A DNA stretch of 64,000 bases, taken from the NCBI GenBank assembly GCA_963678705.1, contig OY783217.1, forward strand, positions 1,116,001-1,180,000, given 5' to 3'. Shown piece after piece: positions 7,451 through 60,224 of the stretch. How positions within the stretch are numbered: position 1 is the stretch's first letter; each line of letters begins with the position of its first letter. The translations under genes were made by a program, and so were the position numbers. A model generated the notes under the pieces. That model saw nothing but the letters and a program-made list of their open reading frames with translations, was not told the DNA's origin and searched no databases. The DNA is from Panorpa germanica (taxonomy: Eukaryota > Arthropoda > Insecta > Mecoptera > Panorpidae).

Positions 7451-7457
7451 ATAATTA

Positions 7458-7699
7458 CCCAGTAAACATTTTGAAGGCACTTTGCCATCACATTGAAGAT
7501 GCGTATGATTTTTTTGTCATGAATGAGTTCAGTTTCTCATTGTCGTACTTATGAAATGTCTATTTTATCAGCAACAAATGGCGAAACCACTCCACCTGTC
7601 GGAATACAAATGCAGTTGATTTGAACTACGAGTATAATTGAAGTGCAAGAATAATAGGAACGTCACAAAACAGGACACTGCATCAAATTGTTTACTGGG
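7458..7699 (+). mobile_element. MITE family A, copy 1
   Basis: A 242-bp non-coding element with terminal inverted repeats CCCAGTAAACATTTT and AAATTGTTTACTGGG, flanked by TA on both sides (7456-7457 and 7700-7701). Internal landmarks shared by all copies: GATGCGTATGATTTTTTTGT, CGGAATACAAATG and AACGTCACAAAACAGGACAC. Related copies lie at 18341-18583, 28576-28828 (inverted) and 41461-41714. The superfamily is not assigned. Confidence 0.85.
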
Positions 7700-10430
7700 T
7701 AGTATAAAATGTGATTCAATCAAGAAATTATTTCAAATACGAAATGGACAAATTTCAATTGATGCTTGCTCATTTATAAATATTCTCTTCTCACAATGTG
7801 TGTAAAAATCCTAGTAATAATTTGTGGTTTCACTTTTTGAAATCGTTGAAATTTCATTTAAAGTAGGTGCCCCTTTTATATAAGCGGCTGCAGTTTTCGC
7901 ATGACTCTGGCGTCGGCACTGAATTAACGAATTCTCACATTTTGGTCATTGGTCATTTTGGTCAACTTTACGGACGTGTTCCAACACCTCTATGAGTATC
8001 TCGGTGATAAATTCGTGACCCATTACACTCTAATAGCTTCTCCACGTCGAACCTGGTGTTACTGAAGAAGCTGATACATCTTCACGCTCTATTAGTTCCT
8101 ACATTCTAAACTAAATGAAAGATATTCACACTCTACAAAATCCAATGATCTGATTGAGTTTCACTAAACGCGGTCCCTGGTCTGCGAATGACTAAACACA
8201 AACACACACACTAATTCGATGATTGCCGCTAAGGTACAATCATTACGCATTGATTTCTATTATCAATAATTACAATCATTAACATTGTTTTTCTAAATTT
8301 AGTTTTGATTATTTCACTTATTAAATGAACACACTATAATTATGGCCCAGCTCGTACAAACAGTTTTTTGAATTTTTTGGTAATGGTCACCGTTCGGGCA
8401 ACATGTAAAGGTGATTATGCAATTAATGAACAGGAATTTGTAATTCATATTAATTGAATAATTTTATGTGACTAATTAGAAGAAATATTTTACGATTATT
8501 AATTTAAAACGCTTTAAATTTGGTATTAATTTAATTTTAAATCGATTCCTTATGTTCTTGAAGATTACGATAGATATCTAATCTGTTTTGATAGGTGCTT
8601 TGTCATTTAGAGTTTTGTCCAGGAAATAAAAGTTGTGTTTTGTTTAGTCCCCTTCTCTTTCTTTTGTTTCTAATCATATAATCAAGTAAATCTAAGAATG
8701 CAGGTGTTTAAGAAAGCGGTAGCCAAAAATATCATTTCTAATGTCTCCAAATGATAATTCGCATTTTTATGAAAAGAAAAAAGCAATTTGCAGTTTCTAA
8801 ATAGTTAATCTTGGGAAAACCTGAAAGTCTGTTTTAATCAGTAATATAAATGAGTGTTTTTGTGGTCGGCAAAGCCACAAAGAGCCACACTACCTAACGT
8901 CCAAAATTTCCTATCGCGCCCTGCTGTTTTACAAATATGGAATTACAAAATTTTGCAAATTATGAGACTATTAGAATGTAGTTTTCATAAATACCAGAAC
9001 CGTTGTACGTTTAAAATTAGATTTTCCTGTTTTAATTATGGTTTTAAAATATTTGCTTTGTTTTCTAAAATTTATATTTAGAAGAAGTGATAATAATACA
9101 AAGCCATTAGATCCCTTTTCTCATTTTATGTTCAATTAATAATAAAAAGTAATTAAGATTTTTACGCTTCATATATTGACTTTTTCGACATATCTCATTT
9201 GAATACAATTTTTAAAATTTGCTTTCACCGACGATTTTTAAAACTATTTATTTTTTAAGAGACAGTACTATTTTACAAAATGTCAATATTATATAACATT
9301 GTTTACGTAATCAAGGTAATTTATGTGATAATAGATAAGTTTTAAAAACTCGAACTGAAATAAATATAGTGAATCAAATTTATCTTTGACGGTCTCACAC
9401 TATCCGACGCTGATTTTGAATAGGGTTTATCGGATTGTTTCGCATTAGTACACATCATCATGAGATGTACCTTCTACATTAATATTTAGTAATACAGCAT
9501 TGTACATCTGGATCAATACTGTCTGCAACGCCAAGTAGATCTTAGTGAAGAAAATAGATATTTCCTCTCATGAATAAGTGTGAACCCTTAGATTGTGTTT
9601 AGCAGGTAAAACTATAAATGTCTTTAGATATTTTATTCAAAAATGTTTAATATTCTCTATCCTCAACTCCTTCTTAACCATAAACAAATTTCGAAGCAAC
9701 TCAGCAATACAACTTATTCTGTAATACTTTTAAAACAACACAGAAATAAAAATGCAAACAATTAATATTAATATTATCTTGTATATATATTTTCTGATAT
9801 ATAATTTATATTTATTCTACGATAGTTTTACATTAATATTTACACATATGATTATTTTGAAAAAACTTGAGATCAATAATTTGAAATCAGTTTAATTAAT
9901 TGCAGCTTAATTATTATTTAATAAGTAATTATTTCACTGAAGAAAACAATTGCTCTAAATAAAATTTATTTAATTAAACAGAATATAATACTGCAATCGG
10001 TTAGTCTTTTAAATAAATTATTTAATTAAAATTGTTTTAAAAATGAACTAATTAATTAATATAATTGGTAATAATACTATTCATTGATAAATTAATATTA
10101 TTTACAAACAGTCTATAATATAGAATCACAATAATGATAACAATAGATTTAGTACGGTCACAACCAGTGTGACTTGAACATGCTCTATTTCAAAATATTT
10201 GCGTTATATTCTTCAAAATATTATTTGCGTTGGAAAAAATTAAATAAATAAATAAAGTATAATTTGTGTCTTTTGTGTTGCATTAGTTTTTCTACGACAA
10301 AAATAGCGATGTGTTACGATACATGTTATTTCCGTTTGGACGTGTTTTACAACTTGTAGTTGCAGAAATGTTGGTTGTCGCATGTTGAAGTCACATTTTT
10401 GACGCCGTGTGAAGATGCCCGCATTTTCAG
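7700..10430. other. gene-free AT-rich stretch 3' of the forkhead gene
   Basis: No convincing coding exon was seen. It becomes very AT-rich between about 9760 and 10260. It lies downstream of the minus-strand forkhead gene and could hold part of its 3' UTR or enhancers, but nothing in the sequence shows this directly. Confidence 0.5.
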
Positions 10431-10537: not shown

Positions 10538-11659
10538 TTACGAGTCTACCATTGGTTGTAAATGCGCCTCCTGCTCCGGACTGGAAGACACTCTCCTTGC
10601 TTGGGCTGCTAGGTGACCATAGTATCTTCCAAGGAGTCTGGGGTCCATCCCCATGCCTATGCCAAGTGCTGGAAACGTTGGCGACCACTGATTTAATCCT
10701 TGCCACTGTTCAGGCTTCATTGGAGGAGTACTCTCCCGTTCCGAAGCTTCCGCTAGAGACGTATCTTTTTCCTCTTGATCGCTGGTGACGACGTCGATGT
10801 CCTGCTCGGGGTTGTCTTCCTCTCCGCTACTGACATACTGCCCTGGATGTCGCGAATCCTTTGTTTGCTTGGTAGAGTCTTCATCTGGTGCTAACAATGA
10901 CGCTACGTCGAATGTTCTCTTCCTAGTGATTGTAGACATTGGTGTGTTCGACCAGCTGGGGTTCTGCCAACTGTGCAATCCGGGAACAGGAACCACTGGA
11001 GGGGTTGGTGATACTGGGGGAGGACTAGGACTGTCGTTACCTTCTTCATCGACGGCTAATCCCATATGTTTTCTCACCTTCCGTTGAGCTTTTCTTCTCC
11101 TGAAGTCACCTTTTTGGAAATCATCTACATTCGCTGGGTGGATCGCCCAGTAATGACCCTTGCCATTCGCGCTGCGGCCCGCCTTGATGAAGCAATCGTT
11201 TAACGACAAGTTATGACGAATTGAGTTTCTCCAGCCTGGACCACGGGATCGGAAATAGGGATAGTTGTCCAGGATATATTGATAGATGTCCGATAGCACT
11301 AGCTTGTGATCTGGGTGGCTCAGGATGGCCATTGCTATTAACCCGATGTAGCTGTGTTGGGGCTTTGGTTCTTCGGGTTGCAACATTCGCTGGTGGAACA
11401 GTGACATTGAAAGCGCTAGACGGGGCCCGTACGGAGCCGGATACAGCGGCAACGGAGCCGGATATTGAGCAAACCTAAGTCTTTCTGCGATAGCATAGTT
11501 ATATAACTGCAGCTGACGATAATGATCTATCGGCAGCAAGTTCTGCGGCGCCATCGACACATTAGGTTGTTGATTTCCATCATGCATTTTCCCCAGGGCC
11601 GCCAAAGGGTAAGATAACCCGCCTTGTGGGGCAGGAACAGAATTTTCGTTGCTACACAT
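10538..11659 (-). CDS. FoxQ2: forkhead transcription factor, FoxQ2 type
   Basis: Single-exon gene for a 373-residue nuclear transcription factor. The forkhead winged-helix domain spans about residues 98-192: it opens with PKPQHSYIGLIAMAIL, has the recognition helix WRNSIRHNLSLNDCFIKA and the wing motif GKGHYWAIHP, and ends in a basic run (FRRRKAQRKVRKH). PQHSYIGLIAMAIL and the downstream FRRRKAQRK are, to my knowledge, typical of FoxQ2 (Drosophila fd102C). Residues 250-258, FDVASLLAP, resemble the EH1 motif that recruits Groucho, so a repressor role is inferred. The C-terminal region is rich in Pro, Ser and acidic residues. The start is the ATG at 11659; the open frame runs two codons further upstream to a TTG with no better start. 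FoxQ2 acts in anterior head and brain patterning in beetles. The family call is strong; orthology within FoxQ2 is likely but not tested. Confidence 0.92.
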   Translation of the reverse strand: MCSNENSVPAPQGGLSYPLAALGKMHDGNQQPNVSMAPQNLLPIDHYRQLQLYNYAIAERLRFAQYPAPLPLYPAPYGPRLALSMSLFHQRMLQPEEPKPQHSYIGLIAMAILSHPDHKLVLSDIYQYILDNYPYFRSRGPGWRNSIRHNLSLNDCFIKAGRSANGKGHYWAIHPANVDDFQKGDFRRRKAQRKVRKHMGLAVDEEGNDSPSPPPVSPTPPVVPVPGLHSWQNPSWSNTPMSTITRKRTFDVASLLAPDEDSTKQTKDSRHPGQYVSSGEEDNPEQDIDVVTSDQEEKDTSLAEASERESTPPMKPEQWQGLNQWSPTFPALGIGMGMDPRLLGRYYGHLAAQARRVSSSPEQEAHLQPMVDS

Positions 11660-11939
11660 TTTCAAATTTTTTTAAAAACACAACACAACTTTATAAACAG
11701 AATTTAATCTATTGTTTTTACACTTAGCACATATTTTCACAATAATTTAGCACGGATGCGAATTACGTACTATTGTTCTTCTTCTTGCTCAGAGCTTAAT
11801 TTACATGCGTCCTACTGAATGTAGTACGATGAACTGTCCTCTATACCTCTCAAAAGCTAACGTGTTTCTCAAAATACCCCCACCCCTGAAAATCTCTCAA
11901 CACAAGAAGTAAACCACCCCTCTATTTGTATATCACAAC

Positions 11940-18340: not shown

Positions 18341-18583
18341 CACAGTAAACATTTTGGAATCACTTCGCCATCATATTGAAGATGCGTATGATTTTTTTGT
18401 CATGAAAGAAATCATTTACAGTTCAGTTTCTCACAATTGTTTGTATGAAATGTCTGTTTTATCGGCTAAGAATGGCGAATCCACTCCACCTGTCGGAATA
18501 CAAATGAAGATAAAGTTGTGCGAACTATAACTGAAGTGCAATAGTGATAGAAACGTCACAAAACAGGACACGTCCCAAATCTG
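18341..18583 (+). mobile_element. MITE family A, copy 2 (3' end decayed)
   Basis: It begins CACAGTAAACATTTTGG and carries the family landmarks GATGCGTATGATTTTTTTGT, CCACTCCACCTGTCGGAATA and AACGTCACAAAACAGGACAC. The right terminal repeat (TTTACTGGG in copies 1 and 3) is replaced by CCCAAATCTGTAAT, so the 3' end is lost or mutated. Confidence 0.8.
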
Positions 18584-28575: not shown

Positions 28576-28828
28576 CCCAGTAAACATTTGGTGAAGTGTC
28601 CTTTTTGTGACGTTTCTATCACTATTTCACTTCAATTATAGTTCGCATCAACTTTATTTTCATTTGTATTCTGACAAGTGGAGTGGTTCCGTCATCTGTA
28701 GCCGATAAAACAGACATTTCATATGAACGATTGTAAGAAACTGAACTATAAATGAACTTTTTCATGACAAAAAAATCATAAGCATCTCCAATATGGTGTC
28801 TCTAAAATGCTTCAAAATGTTTACTGGG
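28576..28828 (-). mobile_element. MITE family A, copy 3 (inverted)
   Basis: A 253-bp element bounded by CCCAGTAAACATTTGG and CAAAATGTTTACTGGG, the clearest terminal inverted repeats of the family. Internally it is the reverse complement of copies 1, 2 and 4. The flanking bases do not show the TA duplication seen at copy 1. It lies 85 bp beyond the stop codon of the long coiled-coil gene and may provide part of its 3' UTR. Confidence 0.88.
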
Positions 28829-28912: not shown

Positions 28913-31900
28913 TCAACAGTGAACAGTCTTTAACTTACTACTATAGAATTGATTCGCTACCTTGGAATTCATTTTATTCGAATCCTTTATATAATCCAAG
29001 AAACACTTCTTCGGAACTTTTATTTTGGGTTTCTTTTTTTTGCACGTTCTTAAGTCCACATATTTGAGGCATTCTGCACGATAATTACAATTTTCCTTAC
29101 ATCTCGGCATACGTACAATGTTACAGCAAGGAGAGCATTCAAATGATAGTTCACAACAACTAACGCAATTCTGTCCACTGCAACAGTTGCACTGACAACA
29201 GTTCATGCACTTACAACAGCAGCATTTCGGTCGAGTTGTTAAGAGTGTTGGGGGACACCAGGAGTAATTGTCCTTGTTTCTCTTGGCGCATTCTCTCAAA
29301 CGCAACAATGGATTACATTTTAAAGAGTCAGTAAAAGATGGAGATAAACTGAAGTTTTTTCTCTTTAGTGAAATTGGCTTATACGAGATGGCTGAAATGG
29401 TATTATGTGTACCCTTTTTCTTCTTCTTTTTTAATTTTGCACATTTCTTGAGTATAACTTTTTTAATTTCTCTATTAATATCCATATCTTTTTGCTTTAA
29501 TTTTTTAATTCTCTTTAAACCTTCTTCAATTTTTAATTCTTTGTATTTTAGTTGGTCCAACTGTTCTAAACCTTTTTCAATCTCCTTTTCCTTTTCATTG
29601 AGCTGATCCAGTTTTTTTAAATTTTCTTCAATCTTTATTTCTTTATATTTCAAATTGTGCAATTTCCGTAACCCTTCATCAATCTGTAACTGTTTGGAAT
29701 TAAGAAGTTCCAGCTGCTTTAAATTTTCGTTAACTTTAAATTCTTTTTTCTTAAGTAGCTCTAGCTGTTTTAAATTTTGTTCAATTTTTTGTTTTTTTTT
29801 CATTTTAAGTAGTTCAAGCTGTTTTAAATTTTCATCAATTTTACTTTCTTTATCCTTGAGTACTTCTAGCTTCTTTAAATTTTCTTTAATATTAGTTTCT
29901 TTTTTCTTAAGTATTTCTAGCTTCTTTAAATTTTCGTTAATATTACTTTCTTTATCCTGGAGGAGTTTCAATTGCTTTAAACTATTGTCCATTTTAGATT
30001 CTTTATCCTTGAGGAGTTTGAGCTGCTTTAAGGTTTCGTCAATTTTAGTTTCTTTTTCCTTAAGTATTTCTAGATTCTTCAAATTTTCGTCAACTTTAGT
30101 TTCTCTCTGCTTGAGTAACTCGAGCTGTTTTAAATTTTCTTTAATTTTAGTTTCTTTTTTCTTCTTAAGTTGTTCCAGCTCCTTTAAGCTGTTGTCTATT
30201 TTAGTTTCTAAGTTGTTGATATAAACTTCTTTATTCTTGAATTGATCCACTTGCTCTAAACTTTCATCCGTTTTACATTCTTCATTCGCGAGTAATTTTG
30301 GTTGCTTCATATTATCGCTGATTTTTGTTTTTCCATTCTTGATTATTTCGTTTTGTACTGTTTTGATCTGTTTTATATTTCCATCTGCATTTACTTCTTT
30401 TTTGTTAAGTAGTTCAAGTTTTTCACCAATCTGTTTCAATATTAAATTTGTCTTTTGCGTGTCTTTGAAATCGTTCAGGTTTGGGGAGGAAGTATTGACA
30501 AATTGCTGATTTGGCTTCTTTTGTGCCTTTGCGTGTTGTTCTGTCATCTTTTGTGAAATTATCTGTTTGTTAAGCTGTGTCCTCATTCTGAGAAGTTCCT
30601 GAAACTTTTTGATAGATTCTTGTTCATTCGTTTTACTTTCTTCGAGAGACTTTGTGGGAGGACCATAACTATTATTCTCTTTATTTTTTAATTCATCTAA
30701 TTTTTCTAAGACTCGTCGAGAAATATGTGAATCAGTTTCTTTTTCTTCAGTACTTGGCTTTAATCCGAAAGACGGTACAGTATGCATAACAATTTTTTTT
30801 TTATTTTCCGTTTCTTTAGGCTTTTTTGGCGTTTGCTCAGTTTTATCCTCAATCCTGTTTTCAGCAGAATTATTTATTTTGTTTCTGATGGCTTTTAGAT
30901 CTATATTTCGCTGTCGCAACTGATGCTGGAGAACTGAATTTACATTACAAGTATTGTTTAATGTATTATTTTGGTCCTTTGCATTGGAGTGTTGGTTAAT
31001 ATCAATACTGCAGTCTTTCTTTGCCATGACTTCATCCGTCATTGTCTCATTTGAATTACTGTCAAAATTATTAGCTTTTGGCTGATAATAACATCGTTTA
31101 GTCTTTATCGTACGAACGGTTGCCGGTTGTAAATAAAAATGGCGAACCTTTTTATTTACTGCTCCAAAGTTGTTAGTTACCTTTTGAGCTATGGACATCC
31201 CTGCATTGGTTTTCAACAATGATCTTTTATTTGGTGTGGTGCATATACCGCAGTGATTCTTATTGTTTCTGTGAATTTGTTGAGCTGATGTGAACCTATC
31301 AACGGGATAATTACTACTATCAATTTGCTTGTTACTCTTTTCACATAAGTTGTGATCTGCCTGTAATATTTCTTCTCCCTGATTCTTGCCATTTTTTGCA
31401 AGTTTTGATAATTGAGCTGTATCGCATGGGATTTGTTGAGGTACCTTATGCTCTCTTTCTTCTTTCTGCCTCACATTACTAGACTTCCTGTTAGGCATGG
31501 ACTGTTTCGGTTTGGTATCTTCTGTACACTTTTGTAGATAATTACTACCATCATCATTATTCTTTGACACTTTATTTTGACCTTTACCTATGGGTAGTGG
31601 AGGTGAATTAAGTTGAAGTTTCTTCTTGTCTAAATCTCCCAATATCCGTTTAGCCCATTGAACATTTATCTTCATATTTTTACCATCATTGTGTATCTTT
31701 TCTCCTAATTGTTTTTTTAAAAGATTGTCAATTTCGTTATTTATGGAATCTCCAACTTTATCTACAATTTGTATTGCTGAATTCATACCAGGCTCATTTT
31801 TGACGATGGATCCTAGTTTATAACTCTTTTTTAATAATGTATTCTGGTTTTGTATATTGAAGTGGTTCAATAAATTACTACAGCCATTATTTATTGAATC

Positions 31901-33369
31901 TCCAATTTGATCTCTAATTGGTAGACGAAGATTTATTCCAGTTACCTTTTTTGCCACGTATCCTACTTTGTGATTGTCCTTTCCCAATACGTTCTGACCT
32001 TGATGAATGAACTGTTCCAACAGATTGCTACTATTCTCTTTATTTTTTGAGTCTTTACATTTATTAGTTATTTGATCATCTAAATTAATCCCAATTTCTT
32101 TCTTCGATTTTAGTTTTTGTTCAATCCATTGCATATTACTATTTTCTTTATTCTTGTTCTCACAGATTTTCTGATTTTCCGGAATAAGCTGTTTAAGTAG
32201 ATTGATTTCGTTGTTTCTACTGTTAGACAATTTTACTTTATCTGCGATCTGTTGAGTCGAATTAAACTCAGTTTCTTTTTTTCTAACTGATCCCAGATTC
32301 GGATGTTCCCATTCCACAACTGCATTGTTGTTTGCACTGGATTTCACTAAGTCCAGGTTCTTTGTTATTGGTTGTTTCAGAAAGGTGTCTGTTGTTTCCT
32401 TTTTTATAGTTTCATCAGCTTGCTTACTCTGCTGCGTAGTACATGTATTGCTTTCGGATTGTTTTCCAGTTACAGGTCTTTCTTTCTTTTCTTTGTTCTT
32501 TTTGTTCATGAACACTTTCTGATCTTCTTGATCGATCTGTTGCTTCAAACTATTCGAACTGGTTTTTTTATTCTTGGATTCACCGAATTTTTCGATGATT
32601 TGTTTAGGTTGACGAAACTCAGTTTCTTTTTTCCGAACAGTTCCCAGATTCGGCAGAGCCTGTTGCAAACCTTCATGCTCATTAGTTTCACTATTTGATG
32701 CAGCGAATATGGTGTTTGAATGTGTACAAAATGCTTCATTTTTTTCGCTATTGTTTCTATTTTGCTTCTGTAATTCGAATTTTTCTTTGAGTTTTCTAAA
32801 AACACTACTTTCAGATATATTTTTCTTTACGAAATTTTGACTGTTTTTAACTTTTTTTGAGCATTCCAATTTCGTTGCTATTTGTTGCTTAATAGAGTTT
32901 TGCAGTCTCTTAGTTTTTCGATTTTCTAAATTCGATGCAGTCTGTTTCTCAAACGGACTCAGCACTATGAGATCTTTTGAAGACGATCTTATGAACGATT
33001 GCTTGGCTTGCGAAATAATTCTAAATACTTTGAAATTATGTTCAATAAAGTTTGAAATCTGAAATACGAAATAGTTTTGTTATTTCTAATTAGGTTTTAT
33101 GATTAATATTGAAATAATGCATTCGGGATATTTCAGGTAATACAACTCGAATACACTCTACTCCAAAAGTCGTCATCACAAGGAGTAGAATGAAGTGTGA
33201 AACAGACCTTAAGCACTTGCTTTATAAATTGCAATGCCTGAAGTCTTTCAGGGGATATTTAGCAGAATAAAGTCAAATTGTCTACACAGATGTATGCTAT
33301 TACATATTATGGGCTAACCTGTATTTTTCCCAATACTTCACTGAAAAATTTGGTTGTGTTCCTAAACAT
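28913..33369 (-). CDS. giant coiled-coil member of the cysteine-rich cluster (about 1398 aa)
   Basis: Two exons: 33369-33319 (17 codons, MFRNTTKFFSEVLGKIQ, donor GTTAGC) and 33058-28913 (1381 codons), joined by a 260-bp phase-0 intron ending TTTCAG. Exon 2 opens ISNFIEHNFKVFRIIS, which aligns with the same place in the plus-strand paralogs, so the gene is a family member although most of it looks unrelated. From about residue 155 there are some six loose repeats of 50-60 residues marked by LGxVxKKExxxN. Residues about 965-1216 hold about fifteen 17-residue units of the type KETKIDENLKQLELLKD, strongly helical and probably coiled-coil. From residue 1292 a cluster of Cys pairs is followed by VRMPRC and C-x3-C, a degenerate remnant of the family core; the PRPSFxEC half is missing. 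The protein is very rich in Lys, Asn and Gln. The function is unknown; a structural role is inferred. Confidence 0.8.
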
Positions 33370-33881: not shown

Positions 33882-35634
33882 ATGATAATTGGCACAAGTA
33901 AAATCTTAAGTCAACTTTTATGTAAACCTGTGATAAATAACAAGGCAAGAAAATTTTACATTTAGTAGCATAACCATAACCAGATACTTACTTGAAGGCT
34001 AAATATCCGTGATTAATTGTAGTAGAGACCAAACTGCGGAAATTATTTGCTTGAGGTACCCTTTGCCCTCCTTTATCCATGAAGCTGTCCATGATTGGTC
34101 GGTTCTTTAATCTACTCTGGTGATGGGATAATGGCTTTCACTTTTTTAAAGTGTTACAAGAACTCTAGATTTAAACGCATACAATCAGTTCCGGAATAAG
34201 ATCCTTTTACTGTTCATTTTTTAGCTTCAGACATTGTGTTAGCTCAAAGACAAATGGTGTTAATTTATATAGTCCTATCTACTACAAATTCCACGATTTT
34301 AAAGTTTTGGTAAAAAAAATTATTTACAAGGAATATTTAAACTAAGCTGTAGCTTATCTAGTAAGTTATATAAAAAGTTAAACAGTTTTACTCATTTCTA
34401 GTTACAAAATAAACGATTTTGAAGTGGTGCTCGTTTTGCAGAATATCGCATTCCATTCCATTCCATTCAGTGTAAAATTGTTATTGTAAATTTTCTTTCT
34501 CCAAAGTTCTGCTGTCGAAAATGTTGATTGATTATAACGAACCGAATTCGTTGATAAATATCCAAGCAAGCATGCGGGGGCATCAAGCTTGATGTACTTT
34601 TATAAAAACAGGTTAAAATAGATTTTTTTATTTAATAGGTAGCTACTGGCTTATTCCAGGAAAGTTTTAATCGTTACGACACAACTTCAAATTTTAGAAA
34701 AAAATTGTCATCATTAGTGTCACAGAGCCCAGGATTCTTAAAGTGTTCTGAAAATGGAAGTTCCTTATTACCCAATAGTGAACGTAAATTGTCCAGTTGT
34801 AAAAAGACATCTCATCGTGGAAACACTAGACCAATCAATGCAGTGCAGAGCAGTGCAGAGGTCCTAAAGTGTTCTGGAAATGGAAGTTGTTTATTACGTA
34901 ACAAACAAAGAATGGTAAACGTAACACAAGAAAGATCTGATAATGGTGCATTGACTGATTATAATAAAACACCGCTTCGTGAAAGTATAAGGCCAAAAAA
35001 TGATACAGCTCAAACAAATGCAGGATACTTGAAGTATCCTGCACATAAGAGCTCCTTATTAAATAACAGTCAAACAAGGCCACGTATAGCAAGTGATACG
35101 AACGAAGGTTTGTCATCTCGTTTGAATAGTAGGCCTCTCCTTGGGAACAACTATCTAAGCAACATAGTGCAGAAACGATTTTATGCACGCAGTTGCAACG
35201 ATAATGAAACTGCAGCTCAAGAAGGTTTTGGCCGTTTGCACGACTTCTTTGAGAAACGTAACAAGGCAAATGGCATGCCAAATTGTAAAGATCTGACTCT
35301 TCGAAGAAAACCAGGTAGTTGCTGTAGAGTTTGTATGCCAGGATGTAAACCAAGTTGTAAAGATCATAGACGGCAGTGTTACCATCAAGAACGTAACTTC
35401 ATCCATTGCAGAGTAAGGGCGCCAAGACCTTCGTTTAACGAATGCATAAATAAACCTAACATCTGTTTTGACAAACCGGGGGAATGTCATTGCATGGAAA
35501 AGAAGAGTCCTTGTGTCGAGGATATGAGGAAATCTTGCCGTCCTTGTAAAACAAAGACCTGCTGCGATTCATGTTGTTCATGTTGTTCATGTTGTTCTTG
35601 TTGCTGTTGTTCTAATTGCAGATATCCTTGTTAG
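33882..35634 (+). CDS. cysteine-rich cluster protein 1 (352 aa)
   Basis: Exon 1 is 33882-33944 (21 codons, MIIGTSKILSQLLCKPVINN then K). Exon 2 is 34639-35634 after TTTAATAG. Exon 1 aligns codon for codon with paralog 3, and at the aligned donor this gene has AAG followed by GCAAGA, so it appears to use a GC-AG intron. After the joint, GLFQESFNRY matches SIFQNNLKEF of paralog 3. Next come three diverged repeats of about 50 residues (GFLKCSENGSS, EVLKCSGNGSC, GYLKYPAHKSS), then QKRFYARS at about residue 199, then the core: CCRVCMPGC, C-x3-C-x6-C, PRPSFNEC and ECHCMEKKSPC. The tail is almost pure Cys/Ser (CCSCCSCCSCCCCSNC), encoded by repeated TGTTGTTCA. I think the core belongs to DUF1431. Biochemical function unknown. 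Confidence 0.8.
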
Positions 35635-36367: not shown

Positions 36368-37365
36368 ATGTTAAGAAACTCAAACAATGTCTTCTGTCGG
36401 CTTTTAAATCAATCTGCCATTGAGGTGAGCAAGTTCTATTCATTAAGTTTTGTAAAGAGAGTCCCGTTGAAAAACAGAGAGACAATAATACACCGCACCC
36501 GCACATAAACACACACATGTTCAATCATGGGCCATCATGATTCAATCCATTACTTTCCACATTCCGAGGCTACTTGGGCCCAGGATAAACCATTCCATCC
36601 TCCTAATAATATGAGGCATGTATTGGTTGGACGTCGGACCCAGTTCCTTAGCTAGTTTTTTTGTAATTATTTTGAAATAACGATATTCTTAAATATATTA
36701 ATTTTCAGTATTCACCGTTCGTTAACATCTTTAAGCAAAATTTCAAAGAATTTGATAAATTATTGCATCTGGGAAATAATTTCTTGTCGCAAAAGTTAGA
36801 ATACGAGAATACAGCAAAGGATACTACAGGAAACACAACATTATCATCTTGTAATAAATACCAACTAGAGCCTGCTCGGAAAAAAACATCTGGTTCATTT
36901 TTAGTATTTGATAGCAGGAATCATCAGTCCAGCGCCACAGTTTGGTCCAATGCTATCCAGAAACGTTTTTATTCCAGGAGGAAGGATCCTTGCAAAGACG
37001 CATACTTGCATAATGACGATTCAGATTATATTCCAAACCGACCAGAGTGTTGTCCTCCCCCTCCCAAGAAACCTATTAAATGCCCCCCCATTATACGTTC
37101 AGAAGGGAGTTGTTGTCGAGTAAGAATGCCAGGGTGTGCAAAAAGTTGTAGATATCACAGAAAATTTTGTTGTGAGCCGCATGCCCGAAAATGTACACGC
37201 AGAATAAGAACACCAAGACCTTCGTTTTCAGAATGTGACAGAGATCCTATTTGTCTCCATCTAGTTCCGGAATGTGTTTGCATGGAGAAGACTAGCCCTT
37301 GCTTACATGATGTAAGACCGTGCAAACGTCCCCGTAAGACTCGGACATGCGCATCGTGCCCTTAG
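36368..37365 (+). CDS. cysteine-rich cluster protein 2 (237 aa)
   Basis: Exon 1 is 36368-36424 (MLRNSNNVFCRLLNQSAIE, donor GTGAGC). Exon 2 is 36709-37365 after ATTTTCAG, giving a 284-bp phase-0 intron. Exon 2 opens YSPFVNIFKQNFKEF, which aligns with paralog 3 and the giant gene. QKRFYSRR lies at about residues 103-110. The core is the least altered of the family: CCRVRMPGC, C-x3-C-x6-CC, RTPRPSFSEC, ECVCMEKTSPC and DVRPC. A proline-rich stretch (CCPPPPKKPIKCPP) precedes it. The short basic, hydroxylated N-terminus resembles a mitochondrial presequence, although R-x-Y-S at residue 105 is far from the N-terminus for a usual processing site. I think it is DUF1431-like; the cysteines could bind metal or form disulfides. 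Confidence 0.82.
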
Positions 37366-38184: not shown

Positions 38185-39613
38185 ATGTTAGGAGGCGTAA
38201 GCAAAATCTTCAGTCAGTTGTCATCTAAGCCTGTGTTTAATAATTTCGTAAGAATACACATATTACTATAATAAAACTAGTTTACGAGTATTGTGATAGC
38301 TCACTGTATTATAGTAAAGAATCCAGCTTGAAAATATATTAAAAATCAATAGAAAGTCATTATATTGAACAAGAGTTACGTTTATGTAAATAATATATAA
38401 TTATTATAATGTTTTTAGGCGCATTACTTATTTTACAGTCTATTGTTTATTTGTTTCTTTTGTTTTATTCTTTTTTTTAATGTTTTCAATGAAGTCCTAG
38501 GTCCCCAGACCTTGTTACGCTATATATAGACCACTAGTGCGTGACATGCCTCACATAAATGGCACTATTTCTTTTTTGGCATTTTCCAGTCCCCCAATAA
38601 ATAGTTTGGGGATTAAAGCCGGTCTTAACGAGAATTGGCCTGTATCTTTACCATATCAGCCACACCAAGAATTGCTTTAATCTTCAAAGATATTTTGATT
38701 TATAGATTCACAAAAATCTTCGTAAAATTAAGTCGATAATAGAAGCAAATCTTTATAAAGCAAAGATTTAAAGTGAAAGATTTAGCAAAGATGTAAAATT
38801 AAATTTATTTAACGTTATTTAAATATTATTTAACATTGGAAGAAGATCTAGGTCACCGCTGCACCATGACAATGGTTCTAATAACAACTAAACATTTTTC
38901 AGTTTCCTTCCATCTTCCAGAATAATTTAAAAGAATTTGGAGGTATTTTGCCTCACATTACACAAGAACGAAAATCTGAACTAACGTCAGAAAATGGAAA
39001 TTCAGCAAATTTTTTTAATCGGAATCGTTTTCAAAGAGCTACTCATGGAGGAACGATAACCAGTCTTAATTCTGTATTAGGAAATCGTTGTATGAACAAC
39101 TTGAACCTAGGTGGCAGTGTCATGTCTATGAACTTAAAAAGATATTTCTCTTCATCATGCGATGATTACGATGAAGACAATGAAGAAGCTGAGGAAGATG
39201 ACGAGGTTTCAAATGATTCGGAGGACAATGATTGTCCTTCGAAATGTTTTGTAAGACCTAAATGTTGTCCATCACTCCCGCAGAAACGCAGGGTATGTCC
39301 TCCCATCATAAAATCCGAAGGACGCTGCCAGAGAGTTTGTATGCCAGGGTGCGACAGGAGCTGTAGGTATCATAGAAAATGGTGTTGTCAAAAGGAAAGG
39401 AAATTGATGAACTGCAGACGTAGAACCCCAACACCTTCTTTTGCTGAATGTGACAAAATGCCGTACCTTTTTCATAGTGTCTATGAATGTCATTGCTGGG
39501 ACAAAACATCACCCTGTGTCCACGATATCAGACCGTGTTATGTTCGCCCAAAAACTGATAGTTGTTGTAGTAGGCAATGTCCCAATGTATGCAATGACTG
39601 TGACTGTGACTAA
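38185..39613 (+). CDS. cysteine-rich cluster protein 3 (257 aa)
   Basis: Exon 1 is 38185-38247 (21 codons, MLGGVSKIFSQLSSKPVFNN then F, donor GTAAGA). Exon 2 is 38903-39613 after CATTTTTCAG; the intron is 655 bp, phase 0. A second AG at 38919-38920 is also in frame, but using it would drop FPSIFQ, which the paralogs retain. LKRYFSSS lies at about residue 100 and is followed by a strongly acidic stretch (DDYDEDNEEAEEDDE), not found in the other members. The core has CQRVCMPGC (one Cys of the usual pair replaced by Gln), C-x3-C-x6-CC, PTPSFAEC, ECHCWDKTSPC and DIRPC, with a CCSRQC tail. The N-terminal exon is clearly closest to that of gene 1. Same family call as its neighbours; function unknown. 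Confidence 0.82.
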
Positions 39614-40414: not shown

Positions 40415-41218
40415 ATGGGTGGAAAATTATCAAGTCCATTTTGCCGAAAATTTCTACAGAGCTCAGAACTGAGGGTAAGCATTAATATAAGTGTTGTATT
40501 GATATCCTTTATTTCGATCTATACTGTTAACACTTTACATGTTTATAAATATCCTGAAAGTATTTTTGTGTAAGAAAAACTATAGTAGCAGTGAAATATT
40601 GTTCTTTCATTTCAGCATACTGTGTTTCAAACAGATAAAAATAACACAGATATCTGTTGTCAATTCAGACAAAGTTCGAATAAATTAGGGCATCGAAGTG
40701 TAATTAAAAAAAACACATTTACTTCAATAAGGAAAGATAATTCGCGGAGCAAATGTAATTCCACGATGTTATTATATTCAGCTCTATTGTCACATTTACC
40801 AATGGCACTTGGTCAGGAGATACAAAGACGAAACTATAGCTTAACCCATGAAGAAACTGAAAAGGCTACTAAAGCAAAAAAGAAACGAAGATTACCTAAG
40901 TGTGTTGAAAAACAAATAAGAGTAATACCGCCAAAACCACCATGTCCTGTATTGACCGACGAAGGTAAATGCTGCAGAGTGAAAATGCCTGGTTGCAGAG
41001 CAAGCTGCAAATTGCATCGAAAAGTTTGTTGTTTGCCTATTAGAAAATATAAAAGTTGCCGTTTGAGGACACCTAGACCATCGTTTTCTGAATGTAACAA
41101 TCCTCCCTTTGAACTTCACCGTTCCATAGAGTGCTTCTGCTGGGCAATCAGCCCTTGTGTAGAAGACCAACGAGTTCGTTCAATCCCGCGTAGAACCCTT
41201 ACCTGTCGTGACCGTTAG
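40415..41218 (+). CDS. cysteine-rich cluster protein 4 (220 aa)
   Basis: Exon 1 is 40415-40474 (MGGKLSSPFCRKFLQSSELR, donor GTAAGC). Exon 2 is 40616-41218 after TCATTTCAG; the intron is only 141 bp, phase 0, at the same relative place as in the other members. QRRNYSLT lies at about residues 91-98, in the place of the RFYS-type motif of the others. The core has CCRVKMPGC, C-x3-C-x6-CC, RTPRPSFSEC, and a shortened ECFCWAISPC where the others keep MEKTSPC or WDKTSPC. It ends soon afterwards without a Cys-rich tail. It is the smallest and probably the most diverged of the compact paralogs at both termini. Same tentative DUF1431 assignment; no biochemical function can be stated. Confidence 0.8.
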
Positions 41219-41460: not shown

Positions 41461-41714
41461 CAGTATGTGGAGCATTTTGGAGTCACTTTGACATCATATT
41501 GGAGATGCGTATGATTTTTTTGTCATGAAAGAGTTCATTTATAGTTCAGTTTCTCACAATCGTTCATAAGAAATGTCTGTTTTATCGGCTACAGATGACG
41601 GATCCACTACACTCGTCGGAATACAAATGAAGATAAAGTTGATGCGAACTATAATTGAAGTGAAATAGTGATAGAAACGTCACAAAAAGGGACACTTCAC
41701 CAAATGTTTACTGG
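41461..41714 (+). mobile_element. MITE family A, copy 4
   Basis: It carries all internal landmarks (GATGCGTATGATTTTTTTGT, CGGAATACAAATGAAGATAA, AACGTCACAAAAAGGGACAC) and the right terminus CAAATGTTTACTGG. The left terminus is altered (CAGTATGTGGAGCATTTTGG). Orientation is opposite to copy 3, so the cysteine-rich gene cluster lies between inverted copies of the element. Confidence 0.82.
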
Positions 41715-54435: not shown

Positions 54436-55764
54436 ATGGCATTCAAGGTATCTAATAATTTCATTAATAATTACGCAATTTAGTTTTATCAATTAAATTA
54501 CAGTATGGAATTTAAATTTCAGTTCTTAGTGTTCGCCGCTGTTGTAGCTGCAGCTCATGCAGGAGCTATAGGAGCACCTTATACAGCTACCCCAGTTGCT
54601 CATTATGCACCTGAATCACCATATGCAAAAGCTCCAGTTGGTTATGCTTCTGCACCTGGATATTCCAAGATCGTCGCTCCAGTAGGTCATTACGCAGCTG
54701 CTGCAGTACAACATATTTCCGCAGCTCCAGTTCAACATTATGCAGGTGCTCAAGTGCAACATATTCCTGCAGGTCCAGTCCAACATTACGCAGCTGCCCC
54801 AGTACAACAATTGGCTGCAGCTCCCGTACATTACGCAGCTGCTCCAGTACAACACATTTCCGCAGCTCCAGTTCAACATTACGCAGGTGCTCAAGTACAA
54901 CATATTTCTGCAGCTCCAGTTCAACATTACGCAGCTGCTCCAGTACAACATACTTCTGCTGCTCCAGTCCAACACTATGCAGGTGCTCAAGTACAACATA
55001 TTTCAGCAGCTCCGGTCCAACATTACGCAGCTGCTCCAGTACAACACTATGCCGCAGCTCCAGTCCAACATTATGCCGCAGCTCCTGTTCAACAATACGC
55101 AACTGCTCCAGTACAACACTATGCCGCAGCTCCTGTTCAACAATACGCAGCTGCTCCAGCATACGCTAAGGTCATTCAACCTGAAGCACCTGCCCAATAC
55201 ACTTACGCATACTCAGTCCAGGACGATTTGACCGGAGACTCAAAGAGTCAGCATGAATCCCGTAATGGCGATCGCGTTGAAGGATCTTACTCCGTCGTCG
55301 ATTCTGATGGACACAAACGCACTGTCGATTACACAGCTGATGACGTGCATGGATTCAACGCAGTCGTTCACCGCGAACCAGTTGCTGTCAAAACTCCAGT
55401 TTACGCTAAAGCTGTAGCACCTGTCGCCTATGCAGCTGCTCCAGCTTATGCCCCTGCTCAAGTCTATGCTAAGTCAGTTGCACCTGTAGTGCAGTATGCC
55501 GCTGCTGCTCCTGCCCACTATGCTTCCGGTCCAGTAGCTCACTACGCTGCTGCGCCTGCTTATGCTAAAGTAGCTGCTCCAGTTGTTCAAGCCGTTGCTC
55601 CAGCTGTACATTATGCTGCAGCTCCAGTAGCTCACTACGCTGCTGCTCCAGCTTATGCTAAAGTAGCTGCTCCAGTTTCATACGCTGCTGCTCCCGTTGG
55701 TCACTATGCAGCTGCTCCTCTAGCTCACGTGTCTCCAGCACCACTGCAACACTACCATCACTAA
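54436..55764 (+). CDS. RR-2 cuticular protein 1 (417 aa)
   Basis: Structural chitin-binding protein of the exoskeleton. Exon 1 is 54436-54447 (MAFK); a 75-bp phase-0 intron (GTATCT...TTTCAG) leads to exon 2 at 54523-55764. An earlier AG at 54502-54503 would give a stop four codons on. The signal peptide is about 17-18 residues ([18 protein letters not shown]). Residues about 225-290 form the extended Rebers-Riddiford domain of RR-2 type: [53 protein letters not shown]. On its N-terminal side lie many units of the type [13 protein letters not shown]; on its C-terminal side AAPA(Y/H) repeats end in HYHH. RR-2 proteins are typical of hard cuticle. Codons favour A/T endings, unlike its paralog at 59.2 kb. 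Neighbours are unrelated apart from that paralog 3.5 kb downstream. Confidence 0.93.
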
Positions 55765-59248: not shown

Positions 59249-60224
59249 ATGGCATTCAAGGTTTGTTCAACTGTTAAACAGTTTGTGGAAGGATTGTATT
59301 TTATTTCATTTCAAATTATTATTATTTGTATTATTTTAGATTTTCGTTTTCGCCGCTGTGGTAGCACTAGCTCGTGCTGGGGAATTGGCTTTGGGAAGTC
59401 ATACCCTAGCTTATCCAGCAGCTGCTCATTACGCAGCTCCAGCAGCACACTACGCAGCTGCTCCCGTCTACGCTAAAGCCGTAGCTCCAGTTGCCTACGC
59501 TGCTGCCCCAGCTTACGCTAAAGTTGCCGCCCCAGTCCACTACGCCGCACCTGCACAGTACGCCGCACCTGCTCACTACGCCGCACCTGCTCACTACGCC
59601 GCACCTGCTCATTACGCCGCACCTGCTCACTACGCTGCCCCTGCTCACTACGCAGCTGCCCCAGTCTACGCCAAGGCCGTAGCTCCAGTAGCTTATGCCG
59701 CTGCCCCAGTCTATGCCAAGGCCGTAGCTCCAGTTTACGCTAAGGTTGCAGAGCCCGAGGCACCAGCTCACTACAGCTACGAATACTCCGTTCAGGATGA
59801 CCACACCGGAGACTCCAAGAGCCAACACGAAACCCGTGAAGGAGACCGTGTCGAAGGATCTTACTCCTTGATCGATTCCGATGGACACAAACGTACCGTT
59901 GAATACACCGCTGATGATGTACATGGATTCAATGCCGTTGTCCACCGTGAACCCATTGCAGTCAAGACCCCAGTCTACGCTAAGGCCGTAGCCCCCGTTG
60001 CCTACGCCGCTGCTCCAGCTCACTACGCAGCTGCCCCAGTCTATGCCAAAGCCGTAGCTCCAGTTGCCTACGCCGCTGCTCCAGCTTACGCTAAAGTAGC
60101 CGCTCCAGTCCACTACGCTGCCCCTGCTCACTACGCCGCTCCTGCTCATTACGCAGCTGCCCCAGTCGCACACTACTCTGCCGCCCCAGTTGCTCATGCC
60201 GCCCCTGCTTACTACCACCACTAA
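59249..60224 (+). CDS. RR-2 cuticular protein 2 (298 aa)
   Basis: Structural chitin-binding cuticle protein. Exon 1 is 59249-59260 (MAFK), followed by a 79-bp phase-0 intron (GTTTGT...TTTTAG), and exon 2 is 59340-60224. The signal peptide is [18 protein letters not shown]. Residues about 145-209 form the RR-2 chitin-binding domain: [53 protein letters not shown]. Flanking regions are built of [13 protein letters not shown] and [15 protein letters not shown] repeats, and the protein ends in YYHH. The domain is very close to that of cuticle protein 1, and intron position and promoter are shared, so the two are a duplicated pair. Third codon positions are notably richer in C/G than in cuticle gene 1. 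The Ala/Pro/Tyr repeats suit a sclerotised matrix; this is inference. Confidence 0.94.

Follow-up and report, generated by a model that had tools for sequence, protein, structure and literature searches.

A giant repeat gene of Panorpa germanica as a candidate diverged member of a DUF1431 cluster, with a predicted helical rod in its linker

We analysed a 64,000-nucleotide stretch of the Panorpa germanica genome (assembly GCA_963678705.1, contig OY783217.1, positions 1,116,001 to 1,180,000; hereafter the window), in which a minus-strand gene encodes a protein of 1398 residues next to four much shorter plus-strand genes, M1 to M4. We consider it about evenly balanced whether this giant gene is, overall, a diverged gene of a DUF1431 cluster whose linker has grown by repetition, giving a structural rod joined to a cross-linkable cysteine tail. 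On this account the linker, which connects the N-terminal segment to the Cys core, would have lengthened from about 90-190 to about 1250 residues in two distinct rounds of internal repeat expansion. The later round would have produced a rod made up of 14 or more 17-residue units. A small Cys-rich gene of an uncharacterised family would then have become a giant repeat protein with both ends kept.

The gene comprises a short first exon, one intron and a long second exon (Table 1). The spliced product is exactly 1398 residues long, the length given for a two-exon gene in the initial annotation of this DNA. The interval of that annotation was right at its 33369 end; its 29460 end falls ~30 nt past the array of 17-residue units described below and leaves out the Cys tail (29317-28916). 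At the minus-strand stop frequency of the window (0.0666 per codon), the chance of 1381 stop-free codons is ~10^-41. The first methionine after the initiator is M201, and the first of the longer repeats already starts at residue 148. Because this repeat begins upstream of the first methionine of exon 2, translation should start further up, as exon 1 provides. Together with purifying selection on the repeats, this argues, at the level of sequence, for a second exon translated from exon 1.

The long exon carries two classes of repeat. The first (A) consists of six units of 50-65 residues at residues 148-531, each of which, scored with a leave-one-out profile, surpassed every one of 500 shuffles; the unit boundaries had been drawn by eye before the test, and a gap of 52 residues separates units one (148-212) and two (265-324). 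Two further A-like units are marginal (Table 1), one at residue 872 was unsupported by the same test (86 of 500 shuffles as good), and the autocorrelation of residues 510-940 as a whole was no higher than that of shuffles. The second class (B) is an array of 14 clear 17-residue units at residues 967-1206. The units are spaced 17 apart except for two steps of 18, so a strict period of 17 throughout the array was rejected. Four decayed units occupy the top four positions of residues 850-966 and are in register with the array; among them, only that at 943 singly exceeds the 95% level of shuffled maxima. No significant 17-residue units were found after the array. The initial annotation had counted about six repeats of 50-60 residues and about fifteen of 17, which agrees with the six solid A units and with the 14 strong B units plus the weaker one at 943. 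When seven of the nine A-like units were compared with the B repeat, six showed no significance (87-944 of 1000 shuffles as good); the seventh, at residues 872-915, matches B (0 of 1000) and overlaps a decayed B unit. Homogeneity of the B units is greatest inside the array, where units 1053 and 1070 differ at six bases, and lower toward the ends, a gradient such as unequal crossing-over would give.

Divergence among the units was compared at synonymous and non-synonymous sites (pS and pN, the proportions of synonymous and non-synonymous differences). Over all 91 unit pairs of the B array, pS was 0.63 and pN 0.28, and for the A repeats the values were 0.65 and 0.41, unit pairs not being independent in either comparison. 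Synonymous changes from the B consensus numbered 54.8, compared with 34.9 +/- 4.2 in 500 random placements, none of which reached 54.8 and none of which was stop-free. Leu15 of the B unit is invariant through five different codons, and position 12 (13 Leu, 1 Ile) is encoded by six. This excess of synonymous over non-synonymous divergence indicates that the array has been selected as a protein.

The B units have a regular hydrophobic pattern. Positions 5, 9, 12 and 15 are hydrophobic in all 14 units, and position 2 of the next unit is E in 12 of 14. We read these positions as layers spaced 4-3-3-4-3, in which position 2 of the following unit supplies a polar layer, giving five layers per 17 residues, that is, a heptad pair plus a stammer (17 = 7+7+3; 17/5 = 3.40 residues per turn). 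The hydrophobic period of the whole array peaked at 3.43 (power 19.0) with a power of only 0.7 at the heptad value of 3.5, and 34-residue windows had a median of 3.39 (quartiles 3.35, 3.46). A whole-array peak at 3.43 would follow from the 18-residue steps, which give 120 residues in 35 turns. Pairs of E/D followed by K/R at i+4 number 22 versus 13.6 in shuffles, and pairs in the opposite order 4 versus 13.4. Monomer structure prediction with AlphaFold2, supplied with either one sequence or four (the internal homologues being non-overlapping slices of the array), gave an unbroken helix of 273 residues. The ten-residue block means of pLDDT (predicted local distance difference test) were 71-91 over the array and highest mid-array, and four units run with internal homologues formed one helix with a mean pLDDT of 95.9. 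Structure prediction thus also supports the long helical rod first proposed from the sequence, lying between N-terminus and Cys tail.

Passages of Hartmann et al. 2016 (PMC4786415) estimate continuous coiled coils at about 3.33-3.9 residues per turn and place the vast majority of known non-heptad coils above 3.5. The seam of the array, with its median of 3.39 and peak of 3.43 on a predicted helix, lies within this range. The initial annotation had reasoned that a 17-residue period would force the supercoil to drift or break regularly. Since 17/5 = 3.40 is admissible and the predicted helix is unbroken, it need not do either, and on these models a regularly overwound rod fits better, though a rod of this kind would be unusual. 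We therefore regard a coiled-coil rod as the probable structure of the 17-residue array, while leaving considerable room for other folds. The rod would be a continuous helix whose hydrophobic seam returns every 17 residues in five turns (~3.4 residues per turn), and a left-handed coiled coil formed by two or more such chains would be wound more tightly than a heptad coil, with a calculated pitch of 80-93 Å at 3.40-3.43 compared with 147 Å for heptads (taking 3.63 residues per turn for the straight helix).

Several observations weigh against such a rod. At position 8, all 14 B units carry N, G, S or T, which a plain rod leaves unexplained. Whole-array power at exactly 3.40 is only 3.7, whereas the peak at 3.43 (19.0) is closely approached by a second one at 2.86 (17.2). 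AlphaFold2 with few sequences tends toward long helices for K/E/L-rich sequence, and it gave no confident fold for the Cys tail (block means 31-61). A survey of coiled-coil dimers (PMC9369452) found no period above 15 in which stammers or stutters stand next to each other, as they would in our layer reading; this lends the earlier unease about the supercoil some basis. The survey also describes left-handed coils as frequent among proteins under tension. Stammer-containing coiled coils as treated in sections of the two papers (PMC4786415, PMC9369452) resemble the array in that a three-residue insert into heptads gives a period below 3.5 and overwinding. In those examples, however, stammers are local, whereas the giant array would hold one per unit, 14 in tandem. 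A literature search on repeated or overwound stammers turned up two papers, Hartmann et al. and a LINE-1 study. Plasmodium falciparum LSA-1, whose tandem repeat unit of 17 residues is described in parts of PMC7563759 and PMC2364656, has only unit length in common with the array, and we claim no relation.

The array could also be a lone charged helix of the single alpha-helix type, or a disordered spacer, without oligomerisation. K and E make up 39% of residues 900-1225, the acid-to-base i+4 pairs are favourable, and the K/E-rich extension of the Drosophila protein Knon, discussed below, is mostly predicted to be unstructured according to an excerpt of PMC5364652. A soluble single helix, though, has no need of four hydrophobic positions kept in 14 of 14 units as a coherent seam, and we consider this alternative improbable. 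Less probable again is that the 17-residue units are separate short helices folded back on one another into an alpha-solenoid or a toroid whose turns would fall at or near position 8. The capping-type residue at that position in every unit would suit such a fold, as would the top PDB sequence match of the array, the designed toroid dTor_6x35L (4yxx; E 1.5e-5). Only 5 of 300 column-permuted arrays scored as well, so the resemblance goes somewhat beyond composition and periodicity. The 35-residue repeat of this toroid comprises two helices, and glycines lie between the toroid helices that have no counterpart at the corresponding places of the array. Moreover, Pro and Gly together make up only 1.8% of residues 900-1225, and the AlphaFold2 helix is unbroken in both runs, including that with internal homologues. 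For the giant protein as a whole, five PDB matches were obtained at E<=1: dTor_6x35L (2.6e-4), two Zuotin entries (0.0015 and 0.0051), a designed TIM barrel (0.2) and ribosomal L36 (0.25). We judge these matches to be compositional, a judgement checked by permutation for dTor_6x35L alone.

The coiled-coil rod would be flanked by the two ends that the giant protein appears to share with its neighbours. For the first 50 residues, 2 of 2000 shuffles reached the local score summed over the four family N-termini and 15 of 2000 reached the best single score; one of 118 other ATG-started frames in the window matches both scores. The giant begins MFRN where M2 has MLRN, for example, and its match to M4 alone is weak. 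A phase-0 intron after a short first exon is found in all five genes as modelled, in M1 only with a GC donor. This set of features (short first exon, phase-0 intron, N-terminus) was taken from the four neighbours and is not a Pfam criterion. The family first exon, intron phase and exon 2 opening of the initial annotation are borne out by these comparisons. At the other end, a 60-residue block of the tail aligned with the family better than all but 2 of 2000 Cys-fixed shuffles, and the motif V.MP.C...C arises in 4 of 20000 Cys-fixed shuffles, both block and motif having been picked after the alignment had been seen. Linker length before the KR-type site is 90 residues in M4, 99 in M3, 103 in M2, 192 in M1 and 1248 in the giant; from these sequences, the linker is the site of expansion in the family. 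The M2 linker scored 48 against residues 148-531 of the giant, above all 300 shuffles; its comparison with one A unit was unremarkable (89 of 1000 shuffles as good), and M3 and M4 gave nothing.

Membership of the family is weakened by a number of results. The giant protein has no Pfam match, its tail alone has none at E<=10, and the whole open frame is not listed against the family profile at E<=10. The tail scored only 3.9 bits against that profile, which 1 of 1000 plain and 6 of 1000 Cys-fixed shuffles equalled or exceeded, so that the degenerate family core of the initial annotation is supported by block and motif and weakly by profile. The C-terminal half of the core (ECxC...SPC) was not seen in the giant in the alignment with its neighbours. 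A site of the form K/R-R-[F/Y/N]-[Y/F]-[S/A] precedes the core motif by 51-66 residues in all four neighbours; its counterpart in the giant, KRKNFS, lies 83 residues before the motif and is altered from the family's processing-like site. Also against the overall account, M1 itself has no Pfam match, and no AATAAA occurs between the stop codon of the giant gene and a repeat element ~94 nt downstream. We nevertheless take the giant to be a strongly diverged member of the DUF1431 (PF07248) cluster, though one that the Pfam profile does not match: its N-terminus, intron phase and V.MP.C...C motif are those of its neighbours in the window, from which it differs in length (1398 versus 220-345 residues), in its repeat rod and in a degenerate core unrecognised by Pfam. 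A long exon that is merely a relic, decaying or left untranslated, or an exon 1 and Cys tail that come from other transcripts, would accommodate the degenerate tail, the altered site and the lack of a nearby AATAAA, but this alternative is made very unlikely by the 1381 open codons, the pN below pS in both repeat classes, the splice sites and phase as in the neighbours and the A repeat upstream of the first methionine of exon 2.

DUF1431 genes in Drosophila are testis genes, and we assume that CG12861 is one of them. The family sequence KRFYS/KRFYA/KRYFS/RRNYS presumably resembles a mitochondrial processing site, and the first 30 residues of the giant hold five K/R and two D/E. If the arginine matters, the change to KRKNFS would leave the rod joined to the Cys tail after import. 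The tail may then form cross-links or bind metal, anchoring the rod in a fibrous assembly. A section of PMC9998446 reports CG12861 in germ-cell states of the testis; a literature search in a limited collection found nothing naming DUF1431 or PF07248. Knotted onions (Knon), a sperm mitochondrial protein and Drosophila testis paralogue of ATP synthase subunit d, carries 532 extra residues, 28% of them E or K, according to the excerpt cited above (PMC5364652), and sets a precedent for a giant K/E-rich extension on a sperm mitochondrial protein. Like the giant, Knon owes its size to a long K/E-rich segment that has no known relatives. It differs in that its domain is unrelated and its extension is C-terminal and, in that excerpt, not described as repetitive; testis expression is established for Knon (PMC5364652) and would be a prediction for the giant. 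The mammalian sperm mitochondrial sheath is disulfide-stabilised, and the organisation and stability of insect sperm mitochondria are called elusive, in passages of a 2024 review (PMC11012351). On these grounds we favour the mitochondrial derivative of the sperm as the site of a cross-linked structural rod, while holding this location to be less than an even prospect; the giant would then be a putative structural material for insect sperm mitochondria. Slightly more doubtful is the full combination, namely a natural overwound coil with a stammer in each of at least 14 units, forming a rod of ~36-41 nm (1.5 Å per residue) near the 3.33 limit, generated by unequal crossing-over in a Cys-rich sperm mitochondrial protein. 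Should the array indeed be an overwound coiled coil, nature would have provided a test of the extent to which a long coil can be kept under 3.5 residues per turn.

Table 1. Positions in the window of the giant gene, its features and the neighbouring genes
Feature	Positions	Strand	Details
Giant gene, exon 1	33319..33369	-	Initiator ATG at 33369, 17 codons; N-terminus similar to those of four family members
Giant gene, intron	33059..33318	-	260 nt, phase 0; donor CAG/GTTAGC, acceptor TATTTCAG
Giant gene, exon 2	28913..33058	-	1381 codons + TGA (28915-28913)
Six A repeats	31517..32668	-	Residues 148-531; units of 50-65 residues; leave-one-out profile
Marginal seventh A-like unit	31115..31240	-	Residues 624-665; 5/500 shuffles as good
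Marginal eighth A-like unit	30635..30784	-	Residues 776-825; 6/500 shuffles as good
Four decayed 17-residue units	30233..30451	-	Residues 887, 904, 926, 943; spacing 17, 22, 17
Predicted single continuous helix	29441..30259	-	Residues 951-1223; AlphaFold2
Array of 14 clear 17-residue (B) units	29492..30211	-	Residues 967-1206
KRKNFS, degenerate counterpart of family KRFYS/KRYFS/RRNYS/KRFYA site	29348..29365	-	Alignment with neighbours
Cys-rich tail, degenerate DUF1431-like core	28916..29317	-	Residues 1265-1398
V.MP.C...C motif	29087..29116	-	Common to giant and 4/4 neighbours
M1 exon 1	33882..33944	+	Modelled, GC donor
M1 exon 2	34660..35634	+	345-residue protein; own threefold repeat
M2 exon 1	36368..36424	+	Modelled
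M2 exon 2	36709..37365	+	237-residue protein
M3 exon 1	38185..38247	+	Modelled
M3 exon 2	38903..39613	+	257-residue protein
M4 exon 1	40415..40474	+	Modelled
M4 exon 2	40616..41218	+	220-residue protein; best DUF1431 match

The four neighbours follow one another in the order M1 to M4 and, as modelled, each has a first exon of 19-21 codons followed by one phase-0 intron. M1 and the giant gene are arranged head to head, their start codons 512 nt apart. The Pfam DUF1431 model matched M4 at 1.7e-8 (35.3 bits), above the curated cut-off of 22, and M3 (0.00023, 21.9 bits) and M2 (0.00098, 19.8 bits) just under it; M1 aligns with M2-M4 across the core. A profile of the four cores found no further member at E below 0.6 among all window frames of at least 25 codons, and a viral-contig scan with the family alignment gave 10 pattern matches, none confirmed as relatives. 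Against the PDB, M1 had no relative at E<=1, and a match of the four-gene profile to a peptidylprolyl isomerase/WD-repeat protein (E 0.096) was disregarded. The linker of M1 contains three repeats of its own of 42-55 residues (0, 0 and 5 of 1000 shuffles as good for the three pairs), which showed no relation to residues 60-950 of the giant (108-213 of 300 shuffles as good). Since the two sets of repeats are unrelated, linker expansion seems to have been independent in the two genes, the smaller repetition in M1 paralleling that of the giant. The first intron of M1 has an apparent GC donor, AAG/GCAAGA, at 33942-33950, and the C-terminus of M1 has a series of CC pairs.

A short interspersed element of ~240 bp has four copies in the window (28577-28819, 41473-41714, 18343-18580 and 7457-7703), with 77-93% identity to the first copy and ends that, by eye, are mutual inverted repeats (AGTAAACATTT-type). 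Two inverted copies bracket the five-gene cluster; carriage of the cluster by these flanking copies was rejected, as the element has four copies in the window. Elsewhere, there are cuticle-type repeat-rich genes at 54484-55761 and 59340-60221, which share AAPV-type repeats and of which the second matches Chitin_bind_4. A forkhead-domain open frame of 377 codons lies at 10541-11671 on the minus strand (Pfam Forkhead, 2.1e-33), with a cuticle-protein gene beside it.

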